Shown here: piece by piece, positions 35,761 to 55,159 of the stretch
Numbering within the stretch: the stretch's first letter is position 1
Layout: every line of letters starts with the position of its first letter
NCBI GenBank assembly: GCA_028694215.1
Contig: JAQUTW010000004.1
Coordinates: 1-64,000, forward strand
Reading direction: 5' to 3'
DNA from: Paludibacteraceae bacterium
Lineage (GTDB): Bacteria; Bacteroidota; Bacteroidia; Bacteroidales; Paludibacteraceae
Length of the DNA: 64,000 nt
The notes under the pieces: model-generated
What the model was told of the DNA's origin: nothing
Seen by the model: only the letters and a program-made list of their open reading frames with translations
The model's database searches: none
Translations under genes and position numbers: made by a program

Positions 35761-35958
35761 ATGACCTACATTTCGCCAAAATTTCTAAGTGGCAAAAATC
35801 AAGAGTATTATAACTCAATGGATTTAGACGATGACTTAATCGGTCTTTATCTAACATTAGGAAGACGTAAACCTCAAAATGATTACGAACGGGAATTATT
35901 AGCTGAAATACAAAAGATGAAAGCAGAAGGTGTTGGCATTGAATTTCCTTTTAATTAG
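35761..35958 (+). CDS. Small acidic protein convergent to the MuF-zeta gene; candidate immunity/antitoxin
   Basis: Own TATCTTTG promoter at 35729-35736; 3' end overlaps the toxin gene 3' end. Confidence 0.5.
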   Translation: MTYISPKFLSGKNQEYYNSMDLDDDLIGLYLTLGRRKPQNDYERELLAEIQKMKAEGVGIEFPFN

Positions 35959-37762
35959 CCTTTTCAAGAAATTTCTCATATAGTTTTTTGTCAGAGATTT
36001 CTAATTTGCCGTTTACCATTTTAAGTATCAATCTTGGCGTGCCGTTTATATTCGTGTCCCACAAATACAATTCGTCAAAAGTGTTGTTTTCAATTAATTG
36101 AGGAACAAGTTTACTGATTTCCCTATTCATATTTTTTATATACGGAAGTGGGACTTTCCTGCCTGTTTTTTCTGCTCTCAGTTTTGCAAGTTTAATACTC
36201 AAATCCGTATCAAGCGAAACATAATCCGCTCGTACAGGTTTACCCGTTTTTTGTCGTATATCAGCAACTCGTTCAGCCACTTTATTAAAAGTTCCGTCAT
36301 TGACACCGTCAATAACAACTCCTATATTTTTATCAAAAGCCTTTTTTTGAATCTGTTTACCGAGCATGGAACTTTCTTCGTGAACGAAATTGGCAGCTTT
36401 TTTAATCAATGTTTTATTTCCGCTTTTCAACATTGTTTCGTATTCAGGTATCATTGATTTTATTTTATCTGCATCTACCACCAATACACCTTTTGGGTGC
36501 GGAAGCAATCCGCTATCAACAAGCGTGCTTTTACCATTGGCAGGAGCACCGCCAAGCATATATACCACATCTGATTTTACATTGTTTGAACTTAAATAGT
36601 TGTAAACTATTTCCTTCTGAAGTTGTTGTCTTTTCTCGTTGTATATTTTATTTGAAGCAAATATGTCTTCGGTTATCAATTCTCTTTGAACAGAAATATT
36701 TATAGCGTTTATGTCAAGTCGTCCTTGCTTTGCCGATTCTATAATAGTTTCAGACATAGGAACATAATTTTTATTATTTCTAACGAAGTACGGCAGCGTT
36801 CCACGTCTTTCGGCTTCCGCTATACGGTCTGAATTTTCTCCAATCCAGCTTTTGAATCCTTCCGGCACGTCTTTCACTTCGTTTACGCTGGTAGGCGAGT
36901 TACTCCAAAACTCCTCTTTCGTTTTGAGGATTGAAACAACATAACACCGGCAGTTCGGATGCCAGCCCACAAACTGAAAATCTTTCGGATATTTCCCGGC
37001 CAATGATTCACATACTTTGCAATCGAATTTCCGTCCCGAACGTTTTACTTCAAAACCAACCACGAAATCCAATTGTTTCCAGCGTGTTTGCTCGGCAGTA
37101 CGGTATGCCATATTTATTTCTGTGCGTGCCAACCGTGCCGCCTTGTATTCGCAGTCGAGAATATCAGCGGCTTTCCCGAACTTCGTTTTGTACTCCGTTT
37201 TGAGTAGGTCAAAGTCGGAAGCATACTTTGACAACCGCTTGCTTAATGCAACGGCCGATGTTCCTTTTTCTATTCCGCTGGATATGGCAGCTTCAAGCCA
37301 TTGCTTGTAGTCTTGTGATTGATTCCACAACTTGGCCGAAAGGTTCAATCCCTTATCTTTTCGTTGTTGGAACGCTTTGAGTGCGTCTGAATTTTTCTGA
37401 TAATAGATTGCTTTCTTTTGTCCGTTAATTGTCCCCTTGTATGATCGCATTACGTCTTTGACAAGCAAGTCTTGTAGTAGGTTTGACTGTTCCCACTCTT
37501 TTGATGTCCCAGATAAAATTGTTGAACGTATGTCGGCAACGTAGTGTGACTGCAATTCCTCCAAAGCACGTTTTGTTTGCGGATAGTCAGAGAATTTGAA
37601 CGGAGTTTCTGCATCTGCCGAATATCCAGCATTGACTGCCATTTTCGCTGCTTCGTCATGATAAGTGTCGAATAATGCTTGTAGTAGAGCCGTGTATCTG
37701 TTAAGCCTTGAATTGTGTTCTGAATAGGCTTTTTTTTGATTTGGAGTGTTGATTTTAGGCAT
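35951..37762 (-). CDS. MuF-like minor head protein fused to a zeta-toxin-like kinase
   Basis: N-terminal MuF region with CKVCESLAG...GWHPNCRCYVV; C-terminal GGAPANGKSTLVDSG Walker A, DADKIKSMIPEY, VIDGV. Confidence 0.85.
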   Translation of the reverse strand: MPKINTPNQKKAYSEHNSRLNRYTALLQALFDTYHDEAAKMAVNAGYSADAETPFKFSDYPQTKRALEELQSHYVADIRSTILSGTSKEWEQSNLLQDLLVKDVMRSYKGTINGQKKAIYYQKNSDALKAFQQRKDKGLNLSAKLWNQSQDYKQWLEAAISSGIEKGTSAVALSKRLSKYASDFDLLKTEYKTKFGKAADILDCEYKAARLARTEINMAYRTAEQTRWKQLDFVVGFEVKRSGRKFDCKVCESLAGKYPKDFQFVGWHPNCRCYVVSILKTKEEFWSNSPTSVNEVKDVPEGFKSWIGENSDRIAEAERRGTLPYFVRNNKNYVPMSETIIESAKQGRLDINAINISVQRELITEDIFASNKIYNEKRQQLQKEIVYNYLSSNNVKSDVVYMLGGAPANGKSTLVDSGLLPHPKGVLVVDADKIKSMIPEYETMLKSGNKTLIKKAANFVHEESSMLGKQIQKKAFDKNIGVVIDGVNDGTFNKVAERVADIRQKTGKPVRADYVSLDTDLSIKLAKLRAEKTGRKVPLPYIKNMNREISKLVPQLIENNTFDELYLWDTNINGTPRLILKMVNGKLEISDKKLYEKFLEKAN

Positions 37763-38175: not shown

Positions 38176-39642
38176 ATGGAAAATAACATTTTTGACAGGG
38201 ATTTTTATCCAACACCGCAAGGAGTCATCGACAGTATGCTTGCATACTCAGATGTAACGAACAAAGTCGTTTTAGAGCCGTCAGCTGGAAGCGGTAACAT
38301 TGTAGAATGGTTGAACGCACACAGCGCCAAGAATGTACTTGCTTGCGAAACCAACGAAAAACTGAAAGCGATATTATCGACAAAGAAATGCGATATTATC
38401 GCTTCCGATTTCTTAACTGTAACGCCCGAACAAATCAGCCATATCGACATGATAGTGATGAATCCGCCGTTTACGGCCGATGAGAAACACATCTTGCACG
38501 CCTTTGAGGTTGCACCGGACGGCTGCGAGATAATCGCCCTGTGCAACACAAACACGCTCGATAAAGGCAGTATCTATACCGACCGCAGAAAATTGCGGGA
38601 GTTGGTCGATAAATACGGGAGTGACGAATATTTTGGCGAGTGTTTCGGACAGTCTGAAGAAAGGCGCACGAGAGCTGATATTAGTTGCGTAAGATTGTTC
38701 AAGCCGAAACAAGGCAGGATGGAGTTTGACGATTATTTTTCGATGGAAGATGACGAGAAAGAACCGCAAGCCGATGGACTTATCACATACGATTTCGTCA
38801 AGGATGCCGTAAGCAGGTACTGTGATGCTGTAAAACGATTCGATTCCGTAATGGAACAGAACAATGCTATAAACGAACTGACAAAAGGCATTGGCGGTGA
38901 CGACATAAAATTTGGTACCTACCGACCATCATCAAACAACAATTTAAGTAATAAAATCAGCCGTGAGTACTTCAAGAAAGAACTCCAAAAATCGGCTTGG
39001 AAATGGCTATTTGACAAGTTCGACATGGAAAAGTACATAACACGTGGTGTTATGAGCGACATCAACCGATTTGTCGAGCAGCAGCAGAACGTTCCTTTCA
39101 CGATTAAAAACATCTACCGAATGGTTCAGATGATTGTCGGAACTCATTCCGAGCGAATGGAAAAGGTTCTTGTCGAGGCGTTCGACAAAATTTGCTCTTT
39201 CAGCTATGAAAATTCAACCGCTGGCGAGAAATGGAAAACGAACAGCGATTATATGATTAACAAGCGCTTCATTATCCCATACATCTGCGATTATGGCCGA
39301 ATATGGAAAGAGGACTATGTTACACTGCATTATAGTTATAATAATGAGATTGATGACATTATAAAGGCTTTATGCTATCTTACAGGTTCTGACTATAACA
39401 AGGAACAAGATTTATATAATTTCATCAGGGCGATTAGACCGAAATGGGGCGAGTGGACGTATTGGAGTTTCTTCAAGATAAGGGGCTACAAGAAAGGAAC
39501 GATGCACTTTGAGTTTCAAAACGAAGAAACATGGATGGCGTTCAATAGAGAGGTCGCGCGCATCAAAGGCTGGCAACTCCCAAAATCAAGAAAAGGCAAT
39601 AAAGAAGAAAACGTTGAAAATTCACCTAAATTAAAATTTTGA
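38176..39642 (+). CDS. N6-adenine-type DNA methyltransferase-like protein with DUF4942-like C-terminus
   Basis: DFYPTPQGVIDSML, LEPSAGSGNIVEWL, IVMNPPFTADEKH. Confidence 0.8.
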   Translation: MENNIFDRDFYPTPQGVIDSMLAYSDVTNKVVLEPSAGSGNIVEWLNAHSAKNVLACETNEKLKAILSTKKCDIIASDFLTVTPEQISHIDMIVMNPPFTADEKHILHAFEVAPDGCEIIALCNTNTLDKGSIYTDRRKLRELVDKYGSDEYFGECFGQSEERRTRADISCVRLFKPKQGRMEFDDYFSMEDDEKEPQADGLITYDFVKDAVSRYCDAVKRFDSVMEQNNAINELTKGIGGDDIKFGTYRPSSNNNLSNKISREYFKKELQKSAWKWLFDKFDMEKYITRGVMSDINRFVEQQQNVPFTIKNIYRMVQMIVGTHSERMEKVLVEAFDKICSFSYENSTAGEKWKTNSDYMINKRFIIPYICDYGRIWKEDYVTLHYSYNNEIDDIIKALCYLTGSDYNKEQDLYNFIRAIRPKWGEWTYWSFFKIRGYKKGTMHFEFQNEETWMAFNREVARIKGWQLPKSRKGNKEENVENSPKLKF

Positions 39643-39644
39643 CA

Positions 39645-39809
39645 ATGGAAAACTACAAGATTGAGATTACAGAAACGTTGAGCAAAACCATTACAGTCCG
39701 GGCAAACACTTCCAGCGACGCTGAATTAAAAGTTCAGAAAAAATATTACAATGGAAAAATCGTATTAGACGCTGACGACTTCGTTTGTGTTGATTTTCGC
39801 ACAATTTAA
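39645..39809 (+). CDS. DpnD/PcfM-like small protein
   Basis: MENYKIEITETLSKTITVRANTSSDAELKVQKKYYNGKIVLDADDFVCVDFRTI, below ORF-track cutoff. Confidence 0.65.
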   Translation: MENYKIEITETLSKTITVRANTSSDAELKVQKKYYNGKIVLDADDFVCVDFRTI

Positions 39810-39823
39810 CATAAAAACATGTA

Positions 39824-39862
39824 TAAAAGTGCGTATTTAATACGCACTTTTAATTATCTTTG
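39824..39862 (+). promoter_or_regulatory. Operator copy 1 (29-bp perfect palindrome) plus TATCTTTG promoter
   Basis: TAAAAGTGCGTATT-T-AATACGCACTTTTA then TATCTTTG. Confidence 0.85.
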
Positions 39863-39866
39863 CATT

Positions 39867-40265
39867 ATGATTTACACATCATATTTTGGAAATTTGAGAA
39901 GACTTTACAGCTCAAACGTGACACCAATAAGTGTCGCGCTATGGAAACCAAAGTTTTTCAACGGGGCATCAATCATTGAAGTTGCACCAACTCATTACAT
40001 GTTGAGTAACGCTTGCAAGATGAACGAATATCTTATCTTGTACAGCAGTATGTTGTCTGGCCTGAATGCGTTTAAAATTCTTGAACGCATAAATGAATTG
40101 TCAGAAGGCAAAGATGTTGCGTTGTGTTGCTACGAAAAGCCCGGCGATTTTTGTCATCGCCATTTATTGGCTGGGTGGCTTACAAAAGAAACTGGAGTTG
40201 AAATTATTGAATATGGAGTAGCTGAAAAACCAAAAACTCAAACACAAACCGAATTGCAATTCTAA
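39867..40265 (+). CDS. DUF488-like protein
   Basis: MIYTSYFGNLRRL...VALCCYEKPGDFCHRHLLAGWL; start corrected from ORF-track 39819. Confidence 0.8.
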   Translation: MIYTSYFGNLRRLYSSNVTPISVALWKPKFFNGASIIEVAPTHYMLSNACKMNEYLILYSSMLSGLNAFKILERINELSEGKDVALCCYEKPGDFCHRHLLAGWLTKETGVEIIEYGVAEKPKTQTQTELQF

Positions 40266-41131
40266 TGAAAGTTTTTATTGATAAATCTGCTATTGAATCA
40301 AACATCAAAAATGCCGAACGTATCACAGGTAAGCCAATAGCTTTGATGTTCAAGGATTTCTACGAATATGTTTATCCGTGTCTTGATGTAAAAAACAATA
40401 TCCTTTCAAAGCATATTGATAATAGCGTTTGCTATTCAATCGGATGCGCTTCAACTCAAAATAATGGCTCTGTTATTAGTTGTTTTCAAGAAGCTCTTAA
40501 ATTTCATAACGATTTCGGGATTAAGAAATTTTACATACCGATAAATTCGCTTGATAATAGAGAAGGCTTTGGCTTGTACAAAGCAACGAAAATGGCTAAT
40601 GTTGTTCGCAAAATGATTCCTGATGCAGAATTGACTGCTATGATAACGTCGGGCTGTATTAATGAATATTTCCTACCTATTTCTTTTTGGAATAGTATGG
40701 ATAATGAAACTCGCTCTGCATTTAACCGTTGGAGTTTAGGTGGCAGCTTTTATCTTGGCCATGAAGAATTCTTTTCTTTTGCCGACGAGATACGAATAGG
40801 CGAGTATATGTTATTTGGGACAATCCCTTTTTGTGAAAAGAATCATTTGTTAGGTCGTAATGGAATCACGTTTAAGACGAGAGTTCTTGCTGTTTATCCT
40901 GAACGTGACGAGTTTATATGCGACTGCGGTTATTCTGTTTGCGACATTCAAAATTGCTCATTTCTTGGATTTAACAAAATAAAAAGAGCATCTGTTGATT
41001 TTGTCGATAGTTCGAGTGACTACGCAATATTTAAGGGATGCAAAGGTGTTGAGGCCGGTTATGAATTGCTATTTGTCCCAGATTACAAATCACTCGTAAA
41101 ATTAAAAAATGTCGAACATGGAATTGTGTAG
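40265..41131 (+). CDS. PLP fold-type III (alanine/ornithine racemase-like) protein
   Basis: VFIDKSAIESNIKNAERITGKPIALMFKDFYEYV, REGFGL, DEIRIGEYMLFG. Confidence 0.65.
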   Translation: MKVFIDKSAIESNIKNAERITGKPIALMFKDFYEYVYPCLDVKNNILSKHIDNSVCYSIGCASTQNNGSVISCFQEALKFHNDFGIKKFYIPINSLDNREGFGLYKATKMANVVRKMIPDAELTAMITSGCINEYFLPISFWNSMDNETRSAFNRWSLGGSFYLGHEEFFSFADEIRIGEYMLFGTIPFCEKNHLLGRNGITFKTRVLAVYPERDEFICDCGYSVCDIQNCSFLGFNKIKRASVDFVDSSSDYAIFKGCKGVEAGYELLFVPDYKSLVKLKNVEHGIV

Positions 41132-43127
41132 AACGATAGGGTTTGAACTTGAAGTTGCTAATGTTGATAAAAGCAAGGTAACGCTTCCTGAAGGATATTC
41201 GTGGAGTGAAGATGAAACGATTGTCAACACGAATGGCAAAATCGTAAAGAGCCGTACATCTTTATTTGGTGGAGAATTGAACACAAGACCGATGTCTTTA
41301 TGTCAGAGCGATAGGGACGAATTTCGTAACGTTGTCAAGCAGATATTTGAAAATGGTGGACGTAACACTTGGAACAAAGGTTTTGACGGACACATCTACG
41401 CCGGCGATTTGTCGATAGACCAATTGAAGAATGTTTTTTTGTTAAGCTACTATACGTCTGTTTTTATTAAGGAATATGCCGATATGGGTGGCTGGCTTGA
41501 ATACAGCACGCAGGCACCAACTCCTACGCTTGAGTTCGTTAAAAAAGTAAGATGTTCTACCAATTTTAGCGAACTTGAAAACGTGTTCGCAAATTCGTCT
41601 GTTAAAGGATATGTTAGGCACATCATAAACATAACCTCTTACTACAAGCATAAGACGATAGAGTTTCGCATCTTTAATCCGACAGAGGATTTTGCAGATA
41701 TAGAAGCATCTGCGTTGTTTATGTTTCGATTTTTGAATTACGCTATTTCACATACGGAAGAAGATTTCAAACAGATTGGTACGATGGATGACTTCAAACG
41801 TGAATTGAAGCTGCATTATCCGCTTGCAAAAAAGATAGCACCGTTGATTTTTTCAGGCGACCAAACTTCCGAACGTGATAGAACCGTTTCTCGTGCTTAT
41901 CCTCTTTCAAGCCCTATCATTAAAATGATAGTCGAAGAAAGTGATGATGAGTTGGCAATCGTCAATCCGTTTTTGTATTCATCTGAATTGAGTTTGTACA
42001 AGCGCAAAAAACTGACGATTTACAATAGTGATGAATTAAACCACATCATTTATCTGCTTGCGATAGGCGATTTAAGGCTTAAATACAACGGAAAATTTTC
42101 ATTTTTCGAAGACTACAATTCGTCAGATGCAGAAACGCAACTTTCGTTGCTCTTTATCATGCACCGATTGAAAAACTATTTGAGTGAAAGCGAATTTGAC
42201 CGTAATACACTTGAAGCGTATAAAGCGAAGTTGCCTGAAAGCATAGAAAAACTGCGGTCTGTATCAAGTGAGCTTGTCAAAATGTTTTCTCAATGCCGGT
42301 ACGTCAATGGAACGGTAGAAGATGCTATCGAAAATGAAAAGTGCATTTTTTGGCAGTACAACAACAATTCAAAGGCTCGTTCAACGGTGTTTTTTGTGCG
42401 CAAATACACTAATTACGATTTGGAGTACGAAGAACGGTTGCCGGATTATTACAATTTGCTTGAACGGTTGTCAGGAGAACAACATTTTCTAATGGTAAGC
42501 GCAAATGAGTATTTGCCATTAAAGAAAATCGGTAAAAAAGGTAAGCAATTTTTTTACTCAAACAAGGATTCAAAGAAAGTGATTACTACGAGCACGGAAG
42601 CGTACAAAAACGTGTCTGTTTTAGTTCCGCCTGACGATTTATCCATAAACGATGTAAAGTTGCTTAAAATCGCTCAATTTGCGCCAAAAGATTTTATCGA
42701 AATACAGCGGTTGTTTGTAAAAAAAGTAGATAAAGTGTCTATTGCTAACGTTGCGTTTCTCGTAATGTATGACAAGTATTGTCTTGGTGGTTTCGCATTT
42801 TCTTTTCCGAAAGACCGTTCGTATGATTTGTGGCTGTTAAGTGATTTCGCAACGAACAACAAAGTGTACAGATTGAGCAAACTTATACTTTTGTGCATTA
42901 AGTCAGAGCTAACTAAAAAAGCATTGCAACGCTACATGAAGCGTTCCGTTGAAACAATTTACACGAAAGCATATACCACCAATCCGGTAAGTATGAAATA
43001 TCGTGGATTGTTCAACAAGGTAAAGTTGGATGAGCCTAAAAAGTATTTGAAGTATGAAACCGTGCTTGGCACTTGCGGAAATGCCGCACAAATTATTGAT
43101 GAATACCAAAAAATAATAAAAAGATGA
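41109..43127 (+). CDS. Amidoligase (Amidoligase_2-like) fused to a C-terminal GNAT/Mom-like domain
   Basis: IGFELEV, GGELNTRP, GHIYAG, YKHKTIEFRIFNPT; C-terminal LGGFAFSFP...LLSDF...LSKLILLCIKSEL...TKAYTTNPVSMKYRGLF. Confidence 0.7.
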   Translation: MSNMELCRTIGFELEVANVDKSKVTLPEGYSWSEDETIVNTNGKIVKSRTSLFGGELNTRPMSLCQSDRDEFRNVVKQIFENGGRNTWNKGFDGHIYAGDLSIDQLKNVFLLSYYTSVFIKEYADMGGWLEYSTQAPTPTLEFVKKVRCSTNFSELENVFANSSVKGYVRHIINITSYYKHKTIEFRIFNPTEDFADIEASALFMFRFLNYAISHTEEDFKQIGTMDDFKRELKLHYPLAKKIAPLIFSGDQTSERDRTVSRAYPLSSPIIKMIVEESDDELAIVNPFLYSSELSLYKRKKLTIYNSDELNHIIYLLAIGDLRLKYNGKFSFFEDYNSSDAETQLSLLFIMHRLKNYLSESEFDRNTLEAYKAKLPESIEKLRSVSSELVKMFSQCRYVNGTVEDAIENEKCIFWQYNNNSKARSTVFFVRKYTNYDLEYEERLPDYYNLLERLSGEQHFLMVSANEYLPLKKIGKKGKQFFYSNKDSKKVITTSTEAYKNVSVLVPPDDLSINDVKLLKIAQFAPKDFIEIQRLFVKKVDKVSIANVAFLVMYDKYCLGGFAFSFPKDRSYDLWLLSDFATNNKVYRLSKLILLCIKSELTKKALQRYMKRSVETIYTKAYTTNPVSMKYRGLFNKVKLDEPKKYLKYETVLGTCGNAAQIIDEYQKIIKR

Positions 43128-43849
43128 GCAGTGAAAAATGGAAGTTCGCACATATCAACGTAGAAGAGATTGTGCCGGCTAAAGAAAATGCCAATAAAAT
43201 GTCTGATGCCGATTTCGACCAACTTGTAAAAAACATCAAGAAAAGTGGTGGCTTGTCTGGTGCTATTACGTGCTACAAGCGTTCGGAAGATGGCAAGTTT
43301 GTTTTGATTAGCGGACATCACCGTTTTAGGGCGTGCGTGAAACTTTGTTATCCAACCGTTCCTGTCGTTTATGCTGATGAGGCAGATATGGATAAAGACG
43401 AAATTATTGCTTTGCAGTTGTCGCACAATTCGCTTCACGGCGAAGATAATAAAGGCATATTGAAACGATTATTTGATGAAATCGAAAGCATTGATTACAA
43501 GGAGTTCGCACATATCAACGTAGATGAGATTGGCTCTATTGATACGTTTAACGCGTCTCTTGTCCCGCTTGCCGAGCATTACAGCGTTTCGTTCGTTCTG
43601 TATAAGAATGATATGAATTTGATTGACGAACTGATTGGAAACGTGTCGGAGCAGATAAACAAGTCGGATGTAGTGATACTCGCAAATCAAGACAACACGG
43701 AAGATATGCTTATGGAGTTGTCGAAACGTGTGGCAAACAAGTATGATATTAAGTCATCGCACATTGCGTTTTCAAAGATTTTACAACTTGCCAAAAAACA
43801 ATTTGACTATGAAAATCAACAAGGTTTGGATAGTAACGACAAGTCGTGA
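43124..43849 (+). CDS. ParB/Srx-fold N-terminal domain protein
   Basis: VEEIVPAKENANKMSDADFDQLVKNIKKSGG...LISGHHRFRACVKL. Confidence 0.8.
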   Translation: MSSEKWKFAHINVEEIVPAKENANKMSDADFDQLVKNIKKSGGLSGAITCYKRSEDGKFVLISGHHRFRACVKLCYPTVPVVYADEADMDKDEIIALQLSHNSLHGEDNKGILKRLFDEIESIDYKEFAHINVDEIGSIDTFNASLVPLAEHYSVSFVLYKNDMNLIDELIGNVSEQINKSDVVILANQDNTEDMLMELSKRVANKYDIKSSHIAFSKILQLAKKQFDYENQQGLDSNDKS

Positions 43850-44711
43850 ACTTGCGTTATTGGCACCGGATTATAAGGTTGCCGAAATAAAGGCCGCAAT
43901 GTCGCCTATTGATGTTGAGCGTGTCTGTGTCGATGAAGAAACGTGGTTTGACGGCGATGTTGAAAATGATGTCGTTTTAGTTGAAACACGGCTTGATTTT
44001 ATCATACGGCATTTGGAATCGTGTGGTTATCGACATACAGGCGAAAGCCCATTTACGTTGAGTTTTAACCGTGATAAGACATTGCTGAAAGGCTGTAAAT
44101 ATATCAGAACGCCACGAATGTTTACCATTGATGAAGTTGTCGATGGTGTTGAATATTTCGTTAAACCGAAATTTTCTGAAAACAGTATCGGAATAGATGA
44201 GAGGTCTTTGTGTAAAAGCCGTAAAGAGGTTTTGGAACGTGTTGATTACCTAAAACTTCGCTATCGTTGCGAACCCCTGATTGAGGAATATATCGACGGA
44301 TTGGAATGTACGGTTGGCGTTGTAAATTGTAATGGAAACGAACACTTTTTCCCGATAGTAATAAATCCTAATTGCGGTTGTAATTGGATAACAGAAAGGG
44401 CAAAAAATGGCGATACGGAAACGTTTCTTGATATGGAAAAAATTGTTGGCCATGAATTGTGTAATAAGATAATTCTTGCTGCGTTCGACGTTTTCTGTAA
44501 AGTTAAAGCGCACCACTATATGCGCATCGATATGCGCATCGACAAAAATGGAGTTCCTTACATCATTGAAACAAATTTATATCCGGGACTTGCTGGAAAT
44601 GGTTACTTGTACAGAGGTTTTGAGGTACAAGGAAGAAGTTATCATGAAATGATTAATGTTATTTTAGAAAGTGCATTCAAAACAGATTACTATGGGACAA
44701 AGAGTATCTAA
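43809..44711 (+). CDS. ATP-grasp ligase, D-Ala-D-Ala ligase-like
   Basis: YFVKPKFSENSIGI, EPLIEEYIDGLECTVGVV, YMRIDMRIDKNGVPYIIETNLYPGL; start corrected from 43728. Confidence 0.85.
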   Translation: MKINKVWIVTTSRELALLAPDYKVAEIKAAMSPIDVERVCVDEETWFDGDVENDVVLVETRLDFIIRHLESCGYRHTGESPFTLSFNRDKTLLKGCKYIRTPRMFTIDEVVDGVEYFVKPKFSENSIGIDERSLCKSRKEVLERVDYLKLRYRCEPLIEEYIDGLECTVGVVNCNGNEHFFPIVINPNCGCNWITERAKNGDTETFLDMEKIVGHELCNKIILAAFDVFCKVKAHHYMRIDMRIDKNGVPYIIETNLYPGLAGNGYLYRGFEVQGRSYHEMINVILESAFKTDYYGTKSI

Positions 44712-45030
44712 AACAAGGGTTGCGGAGTTATTCGCAAAGAAAGGTTGCAACATTTATGCTACTTGTGAAGCTGCCGGAATATCACGGCGAACCTTTTATA
44801 ATTGGTTGAATAGGGATAAGAAATTTTCTCAACTTATAGAGGATTCGCAAGAGGCATTGCTTGATGCCGCAGAATCGAAGTTGATTTCAAAAATCAATGA
44901 TGGCGATACAACAAGCATTATTTTCTTTCTCAAAACGAAAGGTAAGAAACGTGGTTATGTTGAGCAGATTGAACAAAAAGTCGAGGTTAATCCTTTTTTG
45001 GAATTGATGAAATCGTTGCCTGATGAATGA
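44692..45030 (+). CDS. Terminase small subunit-like
   Basis: HTH GCNIYATCEAAGISRRTFYNWLNRDKKFSQLIEDSQE upstream of TerL; start corrected from 44671. Confidence 0.75.
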   Translation: MGQRVSKTRVAELFAKKGCNIYATCEAAGISRRTFYNWLNRDKKFSQLIEDSQEALLDAAESKLISKINDGDTTSIIFFLKTKGKKRGYVEQIEQKVEVNPFLELMKSLPDE

Positions 45031-46556
45031 TGACAGACGAAAAGTCACATAGATTGATGCTTGAGTGGCGTGCCGATTGGAACAAGTTTGTCCGTGATGT
45101 ATTGAAAGCTCGACTTGACAAAGAACAGCAGGAAATAATCACTTCGGTACAGTTCAATAAAATGACGGCAGTTGCAAGCGGTACGGCAAGGGGAAAGGAC
45201 TTTGTGGCCGCTTGTGCTTCTATGTGCTTTATGTATCTGACACCACGATTTGACAAATCAGGAAATCTTGTAAAAAACACGAAAATTGCAATGACAGCAC
45301 CAACAGGCAGACAGGTGTCTAACATTATGACACCGGAAGTCCGCCGTTTGTTTCGTAATGCAAAATTTCTTCCCGGCAGACTTGTGTACGATGATATTCG
45401 GACAGACTTTGAAGAATGGTTCTTGACGGGGTTTAAGGCTTCCGATGATTATACAGAGGCGTGGTCAGGATTCCATGCCGTTAATACGATGTTCGTTGTT
45501 ACGGAAGCATCAGGTATATCCGAAAAGACATTTAATGCCATTGAGGGTAACTTGCAGGGCAATTCTCGTATGTTGATAGTGTTCAACCCGAACGTAACAT
45601 CAGGCTACGCAGCAAGGGCGATGAAAGCCGAACGTTTCCATAAATTCCGGCTTAATTCCCTCAATGCCGAAAATGTTGTGACGAAAGAAAACCGCATTCC
45701 CGGACAAGTTGATTATGATTGGGTAAAGGATAAAGTCGAAACATGGTGTTCGCCAATTCTTGGATCTGACTTTTCTGAAGGCGATGGCGATTTCAAATTT
45801 GAAAAAAAACTTTACCGGCCAAACGATTTGTTTCGCGTAAAGGTGCTCGGTATGTTCCCGAAAGTAAGCGAGGACGTTCTTATTCCTTACGAATGGATTG
45901 AATTGGCTAATGAACGTTGGCAAAAATTGCAGGATGAAAATTACGTACCTCATTATTCCACACCATTACGCGTTGGTGTCGATGTTGCTGGTATGGGACG
46001 TGATAACAGTATTTGGTGTCATCGTTACGATAATTATGTTCCACAGATTGATGCGCATCAATCTGCTGGTAAGGCAGACCACATGCACGTTGCCGGTGTA
46101 ACTGCTAACTTGTTGAGAAGTGACACACACAAGTGCTACGCTTTCATTGATACGATAGGCGAGGGTGCCGGCGTGTATTCTCGGCTCAAGGAACTTGGAT
46201 ATGATAACGCAATATCTTGCAAATATAGCGAGGGAACAAAAGGGTTGCACGATAAGACCGGCGAATATTCATTTGCGAATATGAGGGCTTATCTGTATTG
46301 GTGCGTAAGGGAGTGGCTCGACCCGAAAAACAAGACCGGCGCCGCGTTGCCACCTTGTGACAAACTTACAGAAGAAGCAACAGATACGCATTGGGAATTT
46401 CAAAGTGATGGTTCTATCATTATTGAGAAGAAAGATGCGATAAAGAAAAGAATTAAACGGTCGCCTGACTTTTTCGATGCACTTGCAAATACGTTTTATC
46501 CAAACTCTTACAACAATAGCGATGTGTTAAATGATTTGTTATCAGACGCACTGTAA
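45027..46556 (+). CDS. Terminase large subunit
   Basis: P-loop variant ASGTARGKDFVAA, VTEASGISEKTFNAIEGNLQG, nuclease-type VGVDVAGMGRDNSI. Confidence 0.88.
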   Translation: MMTDEKSHRLMLEWRADWNKFVRDVLKARLDKEQQEIITSVQFNKMTAVASGTARGKDFVAACASMCFMYLTPRFDKSGNLVKNTKIAMTAPTGRQVSNIMTPEVRRLFRNAKFLPGRLVYDDIRTDFEEWFLTGFKASDDYTEAWSGFHAVNTMFVVTEASGISEKTFNAIEGNLQGNSRMLIVFNPNVTSGYAARAMKAERFHKFRLNSLNAENVVTKENRIPGQVDYDWVKDKVETWCSPILGSDFSEGDGDFKFEKKLYRPNDLFRVKVLGMFPKVSEDVLIPYEWIELANERWQKLQDENYVPHYSTPLRVGVDVAGMGRDNSIWCHRYDNYVPQIDAHQSAGKADHMHVAGVTANLLRSDTHKCYAFIDTIGEGAGVYSRLKELGYDNAISCKYSEGTKGLHDKTGEYSFANMRAYLYWCVREWLDPKNKTGAALPPCDKLTEEATDTHWEFQSDGSIIIEKKDAIKKRIKRSPDFFDALANTFYPNSYNNSDVLNDLLSDAL

Positions 46557-55066: not shown

Positions 55067-55137
55067 GCGGTTGTAGTGTAATGGTAGCACGGCAGGCATC
55101 CAGCTTGCAGGTAATCGTCCGAATCGATTCAGCCGCT
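55067..55137 (+). tRNA. tRNA-Gly(UCC)-like cloverleaf, with A33 and C55 instead of U33/T55
   Basis: GCGGTTG/CAGCCGC, GTGT-AATGGTA-GCAC, GCAGG-CATCCAG-CTTGC, AATCG-TCCGAAT-CGATT, discriminator T. Confidence 0.6.
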
Positions 55138-55159
55138 CAAACATAACTTAACTACGATT

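Follow-up and report, generated by a model that had tools for sequence, protein, structure and literature searches.

Organization of the cassette

The window analysed here comprises 64,000 nucleotides of contig JAQUTW010000004.1 of a Paludibacteraceae bacterium. It harbours a cassette of five ORFs, all on the + strand at 39867-44711, whose neighbours overlap by a few bases and which leads into the genes for the two terminase subunits (Table 1). The original prediction had described these five overlapping genes, and all ORFs were found in place; its assignments of a PLP-dependent racemase, an amidoligase, a ParB protein and a Ddl-like ATP-grasp protein stand in Pfam, PHROG and AF2/Foldseek analyses. 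The same prediction placed the cassette under one promoter at ~39855. A Bacteroidetes-type -7-like element (TATCTTTG) is indeed present there, but the DUF488 start codon follows after just 4 nt, and inspection of the sequence upstream of the cassette revealed no clear -33 TTTG. Judged from the sequence, a single promoter driving the whole cassette is plausible, and the palindrome ahead of the element (GTGCGTATTTAATACGCAC) is a possible operator.

Upstream of the cassette lie a DUF4942 methyltransferase-like gene (38176-39642) and a gene for a DpnD/PcfM-like small protein (39645-39809). A 603-aa protein encoded on the minus strand (35951-37762) combines an N-terminus that looks MuF-like by eye with a Zeta_toxin domain (2e-18) at the C-terminus. 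In a related locus (L008) the counterpart has a papain-fold glutamine deamidase toxin domain at this end instead, which means that the C-terminal toxin is swapped between the two.

Table 1 Features of the cassette and of the associated RNA in the window
Feature	Position	Strand	Basis
19-nt palindrome, upstream of cassette	39829..39847	.	read from sequence
-7-like element, after the palindrome	39855-39862		read from sequence
DUF488-N3a protein, core component	39867..40265	+	Pfam PF22751 4.2e-8
PLP fold-type III enzyme (racemase-like), predicted	40265..41131	+	AF2 model and Foldseek
Three-domain amidoligase protein, 672 aa	41109..43127	+	Pfam; PHROG 2443 7e-66
GNAT-like domain	42567..43124	+	AF2, Foldseek; invariant VSMKYRG and SDF...RLSKL
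ParB/Srx-fold protein, SGHHR motif	43124..43849	+	ParB_N 1.3e-5; PHROG 7405 1.2e-50
D-Ala-D-Ala-ligase-like ATP-grasp protein	43809..44711	+	Dala_Dala_lig_C 5.7e-14; 3r23 9e-11
Terminase small subunit TerS	44692..45030	+	PHROG 4044 2.5e-10
Terminase large subunit TerL	45027..46556	+	PHROG 2 4.5e-29
tRNA-Gly(TCC)-like RNA	55067..55138	+	ARAGORN; Rfam tRNA 48.2 bits; model R1 49.4 bits

Protein families encoded by the cassette

The DUF488-N3a protein of the window retains a C-x-E...CHR motif. The racemase-like protein had no family match in domain and family searches, and a profile search gave 3llx at 0.006. Its AF2 model (pLDDT 85.7) resembles D-serine dehydratase, alanine racemase, D-threonine aldolase and beta-hydroxyaspartate aldolase, with Foldseek E-values from 1e-11 (3anv 1.1e-11; 3llx 6e-11; alanine racemases ~1e-10). 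The model displays the TIM barrel, C-terminal beta domain and PLP lysine of fold-type III, and this lysine (K30 in FKDFY) is invariant in 11 of 11 sequences. The second cassette gene is thus predicted to encode a PLP fold-type III enzyme, with racemase, aldolase and dehydratase all as candidate activities.

The amidoligase protein consists, according to Pfam, of Amidoligase_2 (residues 10-206; 8e-8), DAM-like-phage2 (241-414; 2.6e-26) and GNAT-phage-like (519-668; 4.6e-30) domains; Amidoligase_2 (PF12224) scored 33 bits against a cut-off of 22. The racemase and amidoligase folds, on which the original prediction was to stand or fall, are supported by Foldseek and Pfam. ParB_N in the window ParB protein remained just below gathering (25.6 against 26.3 bits in Pfam), and membership of the ParB/Srx superfamily follows from PHROG 7405 and other ParB families. 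For the ATP-grasp gene, the listed GTG start at 43728 falls within parB, and the ATG at 43809 fits the homologues better. Its product scored 57.8 bits against the 404 of the D-Ala-D-Ala ligase equivalog (NCBIfam) and is, by sequence, to be taken as a member of the ATP-grasp fold only.

The GNAT-like domain and its likeness to Mom

The DAM-like and GNAT-like domains, as well as the tRNA-Gly-like RNA discussed below, had been missed in the original prediction. The AF2 model of the GNAT domain (pLDDT 92.6) retrieved GNATs at E-values of ~1e-4 among the 50 Foldseek matches listed. Mom of phage Mu (8bv8; E 5e-4) had the highest query-normalised TM score of these 50 (0.54), other GNATs being similar in E-value, and no Fem enzyme was found by fold among the best 50. 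The CoA P-loop (R/QxxGxG/A, beta4-alpha3) occurs in none of the 77 aligned GNAT-domain sequences, in which VSMKYRG and D93 are invariant; in contrast, the second GNAT of locus L183 carries a P-loop-related YRGNGFQ. The modelled structure is that of a Mom-like fold without a CoA P-loop. Sequence similarity to Mom was not significant (hhalign E 0.17) and the Mom family PF25680 had no match in the amidoligase/DAM/GNAT protein of the window; it is by closeness of the GNAT fold, not by sequence, that the domain groups with Mom.

Mu Mom is responsible for the N6-carbamoylmethyl-adenine modification of DNA, and its product bears a glycinamide-like unit. To our knowledge no donor of the Mom glycine has been firmly established. 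Mom (PF25680; 8bv8) and the domain described here are both phage-encoded GNAT folds in which the CoA P-loop is absent, but Mom comes without a DAM-like domain, ParB, DUF488, amidoligase or linked tRNA. No tRNA was found near close relatives of Mu Mom, in a scan that returned near-identical Mu relatives only and is no test of tRNA-Gly at Mom loci generally.

The domain might also modify bases by ordinary, acyl-CoA-dependent GNAT chemistry, its linkage to a tRNA being incidental. CoA-dependent enzymes are indeed found among the best GNAT-fold matches; however, with the P-loop missing in 77 of 77 sequences and the tRNA linkage recurring in many distant phages, we consider this improbable.

Distribution of the module among phages

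A search with the DAM-like/GNAT family yielded 215 viral and 89 genomic relatives, ranging over Bacteroidetes, Chlorobi, Planctomycetes, Proteobacteria, Bacillota and Actinobacteria. Alignments served as queries; scans of the viral contigs with single proteins (window amidoligase, ATP-grasp, ParB and P0011) gave no matches. The window proteins and their relatives are profile members of PF22555/PF22556 (DAM-like-phage), PF22559 (GNAT-phage-like) and PF22751 (DUF488-N3a), families for which no published function was found in the literature searched; nor did this search reveal a published account of the gene set. ParB directly follows the DAM-like/GNAT gene in 83 of 87 dereplicated clusters, and 34 of the 67 with enough flank have DUF488 upstream of that gene. 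The constant core of the module is the DAM-like/GNAT protein with ParB, usually joined by DUF488 and in a subset by the tRNA-Gly-like RNA. Amidoligase, racemase or opine dehydrogenase, and ATP-grasp are add-ons in Bacteroidales phages. Phages infecting mycobacteria, Gordonia, Bacillus and further hosts have the core, including its DAM-like and ParB domains, but neither racemase nor ligase. The module of mycobacteriophages and other phages is not adjacent to the terminase.

In all 15 racemase-bearing loci the cassette order is identical and the cassette stands ahead of TerS. The gene order of the window recurs in loci L008, L156, L162 and L167 and in 13 viral contigs, and is therefore not due to chance; the expectation that these genes travel together beside terminases has thus been borne out. 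All 13 racemase-bearing viral contigs read DUF488 - racemase - amidoligase/GNAT - ParB - TerS, followed by TerL where the contig reaches that far, and two of them have the ATP-grasp gene. This gene takes the same position in L008 and L190/L191. L008, assigned to the same taxonomic order but to a different family, carries a second full cassette, with DUF488, tRNA-Gly, an octopine-dehydrogenase-like gene, amidoligase/GNAT, ParB, ATP-grasp, TerS and TerL, the octopine-dehydrogenase-like gene (PF02317, 3e-27) occupying the racemase slot. An extra ordinary N-acetyltransferase ORF precedes the racemase in L183-L187 and L189, and apparently in L156 too.

Several loci show further variation. L009 (G193:C81) combines a stand-alone amidoligase with class II glutamine-amidotransferase-like, ParB and PAPS-reductase-like genes and TerS/TerL (named by eye). 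In Vibrio phage 2.275.O (L004) a related amidoligase adjoins the queuosine/7-deazaguanine genes QueF and FolE. Near and upstream of DAM-like/GNAT and ParB in Faecalibacterium phage FP_Brigit (L198) lies an S-adenosylmethionine synthetase gene, hinting at the use of SAM. The annotated GNAT start overlaps an annotated tRNA-Gly in mycobacteriophages Jeon and Megabear (L003, L197), where the start codon was probably called too far upstream.

A tRNA-Gly-like RNA linked to the module

Decoding tRNAs need U33 in the anticodon loop. The window RNA, with anticodon loop CATCCAG (A33) and T-loop TCCGAAT, lacks U33 in its 7-nt loop. Many of its relatives have G33, C33 or A33 or a 6-nt anticodon loop, D regions are short and T-loops broken, yet glycine identity is kept; U33 is retained in several (L003, L008, L010, L025, L119, L136, L190), and some copies are canonical tRNA-Gly(TCC). 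A search with Rfam at its gathering threshold returned no tRNA from the window or from nine loci; since the window RNA did score in a narrow search (Table 1), this result reflects the filter and does not argue against a tRNA. All host tRNA-Gly copies that were found (TCC, GCC, CCC) have T33, so decoding does not require a phage copy. For the window, a role as phage tRNA serving codon usage was rejected in view of A33 and this host set.

A structural alignment of 19 of these RNAs shows no variation at G1, C2, C35, C36, G71, C72 and U73; 18 of them have G3-C70 and one has G-U instead. Together these positions make up the set that confers glycine identity in bacteria: U73, G1-C72, C2-G71, G3-C70, C35 and C36 (PMC9976931 Table 1). 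The seeds were picked for pairing, and the covariation score of 0.97 versus 0.20 for shuffled alignments is therefore partly circular, whereas the identity positions are not. The window RNA looks like a non-decoding RNA built for glycine charging.

The usual site of the RNA is between DUF488 and the following cassette gene; the window RNA instead lies away from the cassette. ARAGORN found a tRNA-Gly just upstream of the GNAT gene or within the cassette in L003, L008, L010, L025, L038 and L119 (at the relaxed threshold, -ps60, its output was mostly noise and was dropped). A cloverleaf scan, scoring base pairs only and no identity position, reached a score of at least 40 in 6 of 79 dereplicated 300-nt upstream regions versus 8 of 1580 random regions (p 2e-5), and all matches starting with GCG carry C35, C36 and T73, positions left unscored. 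A covariance model, trained on Gly-like seeds so that its matches lean towards Gly, gave 48 matches over 2.4 Mb, every one of them in the same orientation as the GNAT gene; L183-L187, L190/191 and L195 are among the loci concerned. Unseeded matches lie immediately upstream of the gene in Gordonia phage Clawz and in other phages, and one was also found in Gordonia phage Soos. The RNA is detectable up to 1.3 kb upstream in just 19 of 79 dereplicated clusters; elsewhere it may, as in the window, be distant on the same record (13 kb off in L189, 16 kb off in L012). Since it is far away or not found in many clusters, host tRNA must be able to meet any dependence on a tRNA.

Other RNA elements were observed at the same site. 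Five Streptomyces loci (L130, L139, L147, L165, L166) carry another conserved structured RNA, GCGTCGGAACC...GGTTCCAGCGC, with an inner GC-rich hairpin, at the usual position of the tRNA-like RNA before the GNAT gene. In rumen Bacteroidales (L017, L051, L093, L152) a perfect 12-bp hairpin, GCGCAGATAGAG...CTCTGTCTGCGC, lies between DUF488 and the GNAT gene; its length equals that of a tRNA acceptor/T minihelix.

As a mere neighbour of modification genes, the RNA could be a decoy or replacement tRNA against host anticodon nucleases or GlyRS limitation. Phage tRNAs that neutralise defences are known, such as a virally encoded tRNA against PARIS (as cited in a BREX review), and the canonical tRNA-Gly(TCC) copies would suit such a role. 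The loss of U33 and of the canonical loop size in many copies, the strict glycine identity and the repeated site in unrelated phages nevertheless speak against it, leaving it only a small chance. A tRNA-shaped structural RNA linked to the terminase, for instance for packaging or replication, would fit the position of the cassette next to TerS/TerL in Bacteroidales phages, but such an RNA has no need for conserved C35, C36 and U73, and the module is not tied to the terminase in mycobacteriophages and others; this seems very improbable.

Proposed function

According to the original prediction, an amino acid or peptide is conjugated by the phage late in infection, with packaged DNA, a virion protein or the cell envelope as possible targets. 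The enzymes are consistent with such a product, and the tRNA-Gly association lends it further weight, although the emphasis has moved, racemase, amidoligase and ATP-grasp being optional elaboration. With Gly-tRNA as donor, a protein (virion or host) or envelope target would resemble the peptidoglycan bridge chemistry of FemX. Cell-wall synthesis classically involves a racemase and a Ddl-like ligase, amidoligases have previously been tied to peptide modification, and the Fem enzymes of S. aureus use a dedicated non-proteinogenic tRNA-Gly (PMC4052509). However, the core lacking racemase and ligase in mycobacterial, Gordonia and Bacillus phages combines DAM-like and ParB domains, and no Fem fold appeared among the best 50 matches, so that such a target is unlikely. 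DNA is the candidate target with the best support, from the DAM-like domain, the Mom-like GNAT fold, ParB and the terminase linkage.

We infer a DNA modification module fed by glycyl-tRNA and elaborated in the window by PLP enzyme, amidoligase and ATP-grasp ligase, a proposal to which we give just short of an even chance. The host GlyRS would charge the phage tRNA-like RNA, which is ill-suited to ribosomes through loss of U33 and other elements. The GNAT-like domain would draw glycine from Gly-tRNA in the manner of Fem enzymes, in place of a CoA-borne acyl group, and the DAM-like domain would position a base of the phage DNA to receive it, resulting in a Mom-like hypermodification. ParB and DUF488 may help at DNA or at nucleotide/RNA ends. 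In the window phage the PLP enzyme may elaborate the glycyl adduct or its joined amino acid (D-amino acid or aldol chemistry on glycine), with further elaboration by the amidoligase and the Ddl-like ATP-grasp ligase; the octopine-dehydrogenase-like enzyme may stand in for the PLP enzyme elsewhere. Expression right before the terminase genes would allow DNA to be modified ahead of packaging and so guarded from restriction. Against the glycyl-tRNA model, the GNAT Foldseek E-values (1e-4) fit ordinary acetyltransferases as well, the likeness to Mom does not reach significance in sequence, no tRNA accompanies the mom gene in close Mu relatives, the RNA is near in 19 of 79 clusters only and several RNAs retain U33.

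Relation to known systems

FemX/A/B are aminoacyl-tRNA-dependent transferases with a GNAT-like fold. In S. aureus a non-proteinogenic tRNA-Gly is diverted from translation and dedicated to FemX, a non-ribosomal transferase, and this precedent favours a non-ribosomal use of Gly-tRNA here (PMC4052509). The Fem enzymes differ, however, in acting on lipid II, in being unrelated in sequence and in having no DAM-like or ParB partners. DUF488-clade enzymes were reportedly predicted in phage nucleic-acid-modifying systems by Burroughs and Aravind in 2023, in work on the rhodanese-phosphatase superfamily. Amidoligase_2 and ATP-grasp peptide-conjugation systems are said to have been described by Iyer, Aravind and colleagues in 2009. 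These share their enzyme families with the cassette, and L009 has amidoligase, GATase and ParB beside the terminase; in the window, by contrast, the amidoligase forms one polypeptide with DAM-like/GNAT, and a PLP enzyme and a tRNA-like RNA are linked to it.

More tentatively, and with a fair though less than even chance, phages may encode a pathway of tRNA-dependent DNA modification in which a host-charged, non-decoding tRNA-Gly and a Mom-like GNAT/DAM enzyme put glycine on DNA bases, with some phages extending the adduct by D-amino-acid, aldol or opine chemistry. If true, aminoacyl-tRNA would be a donor for DNA chemistry, tying the translation machinery to the protection of phage DNA, and glycyl-tRNA would become a concrete candidate donor for Mom. 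It would also account for some of the phage tRNA-Gly genes that seem useless in translation.
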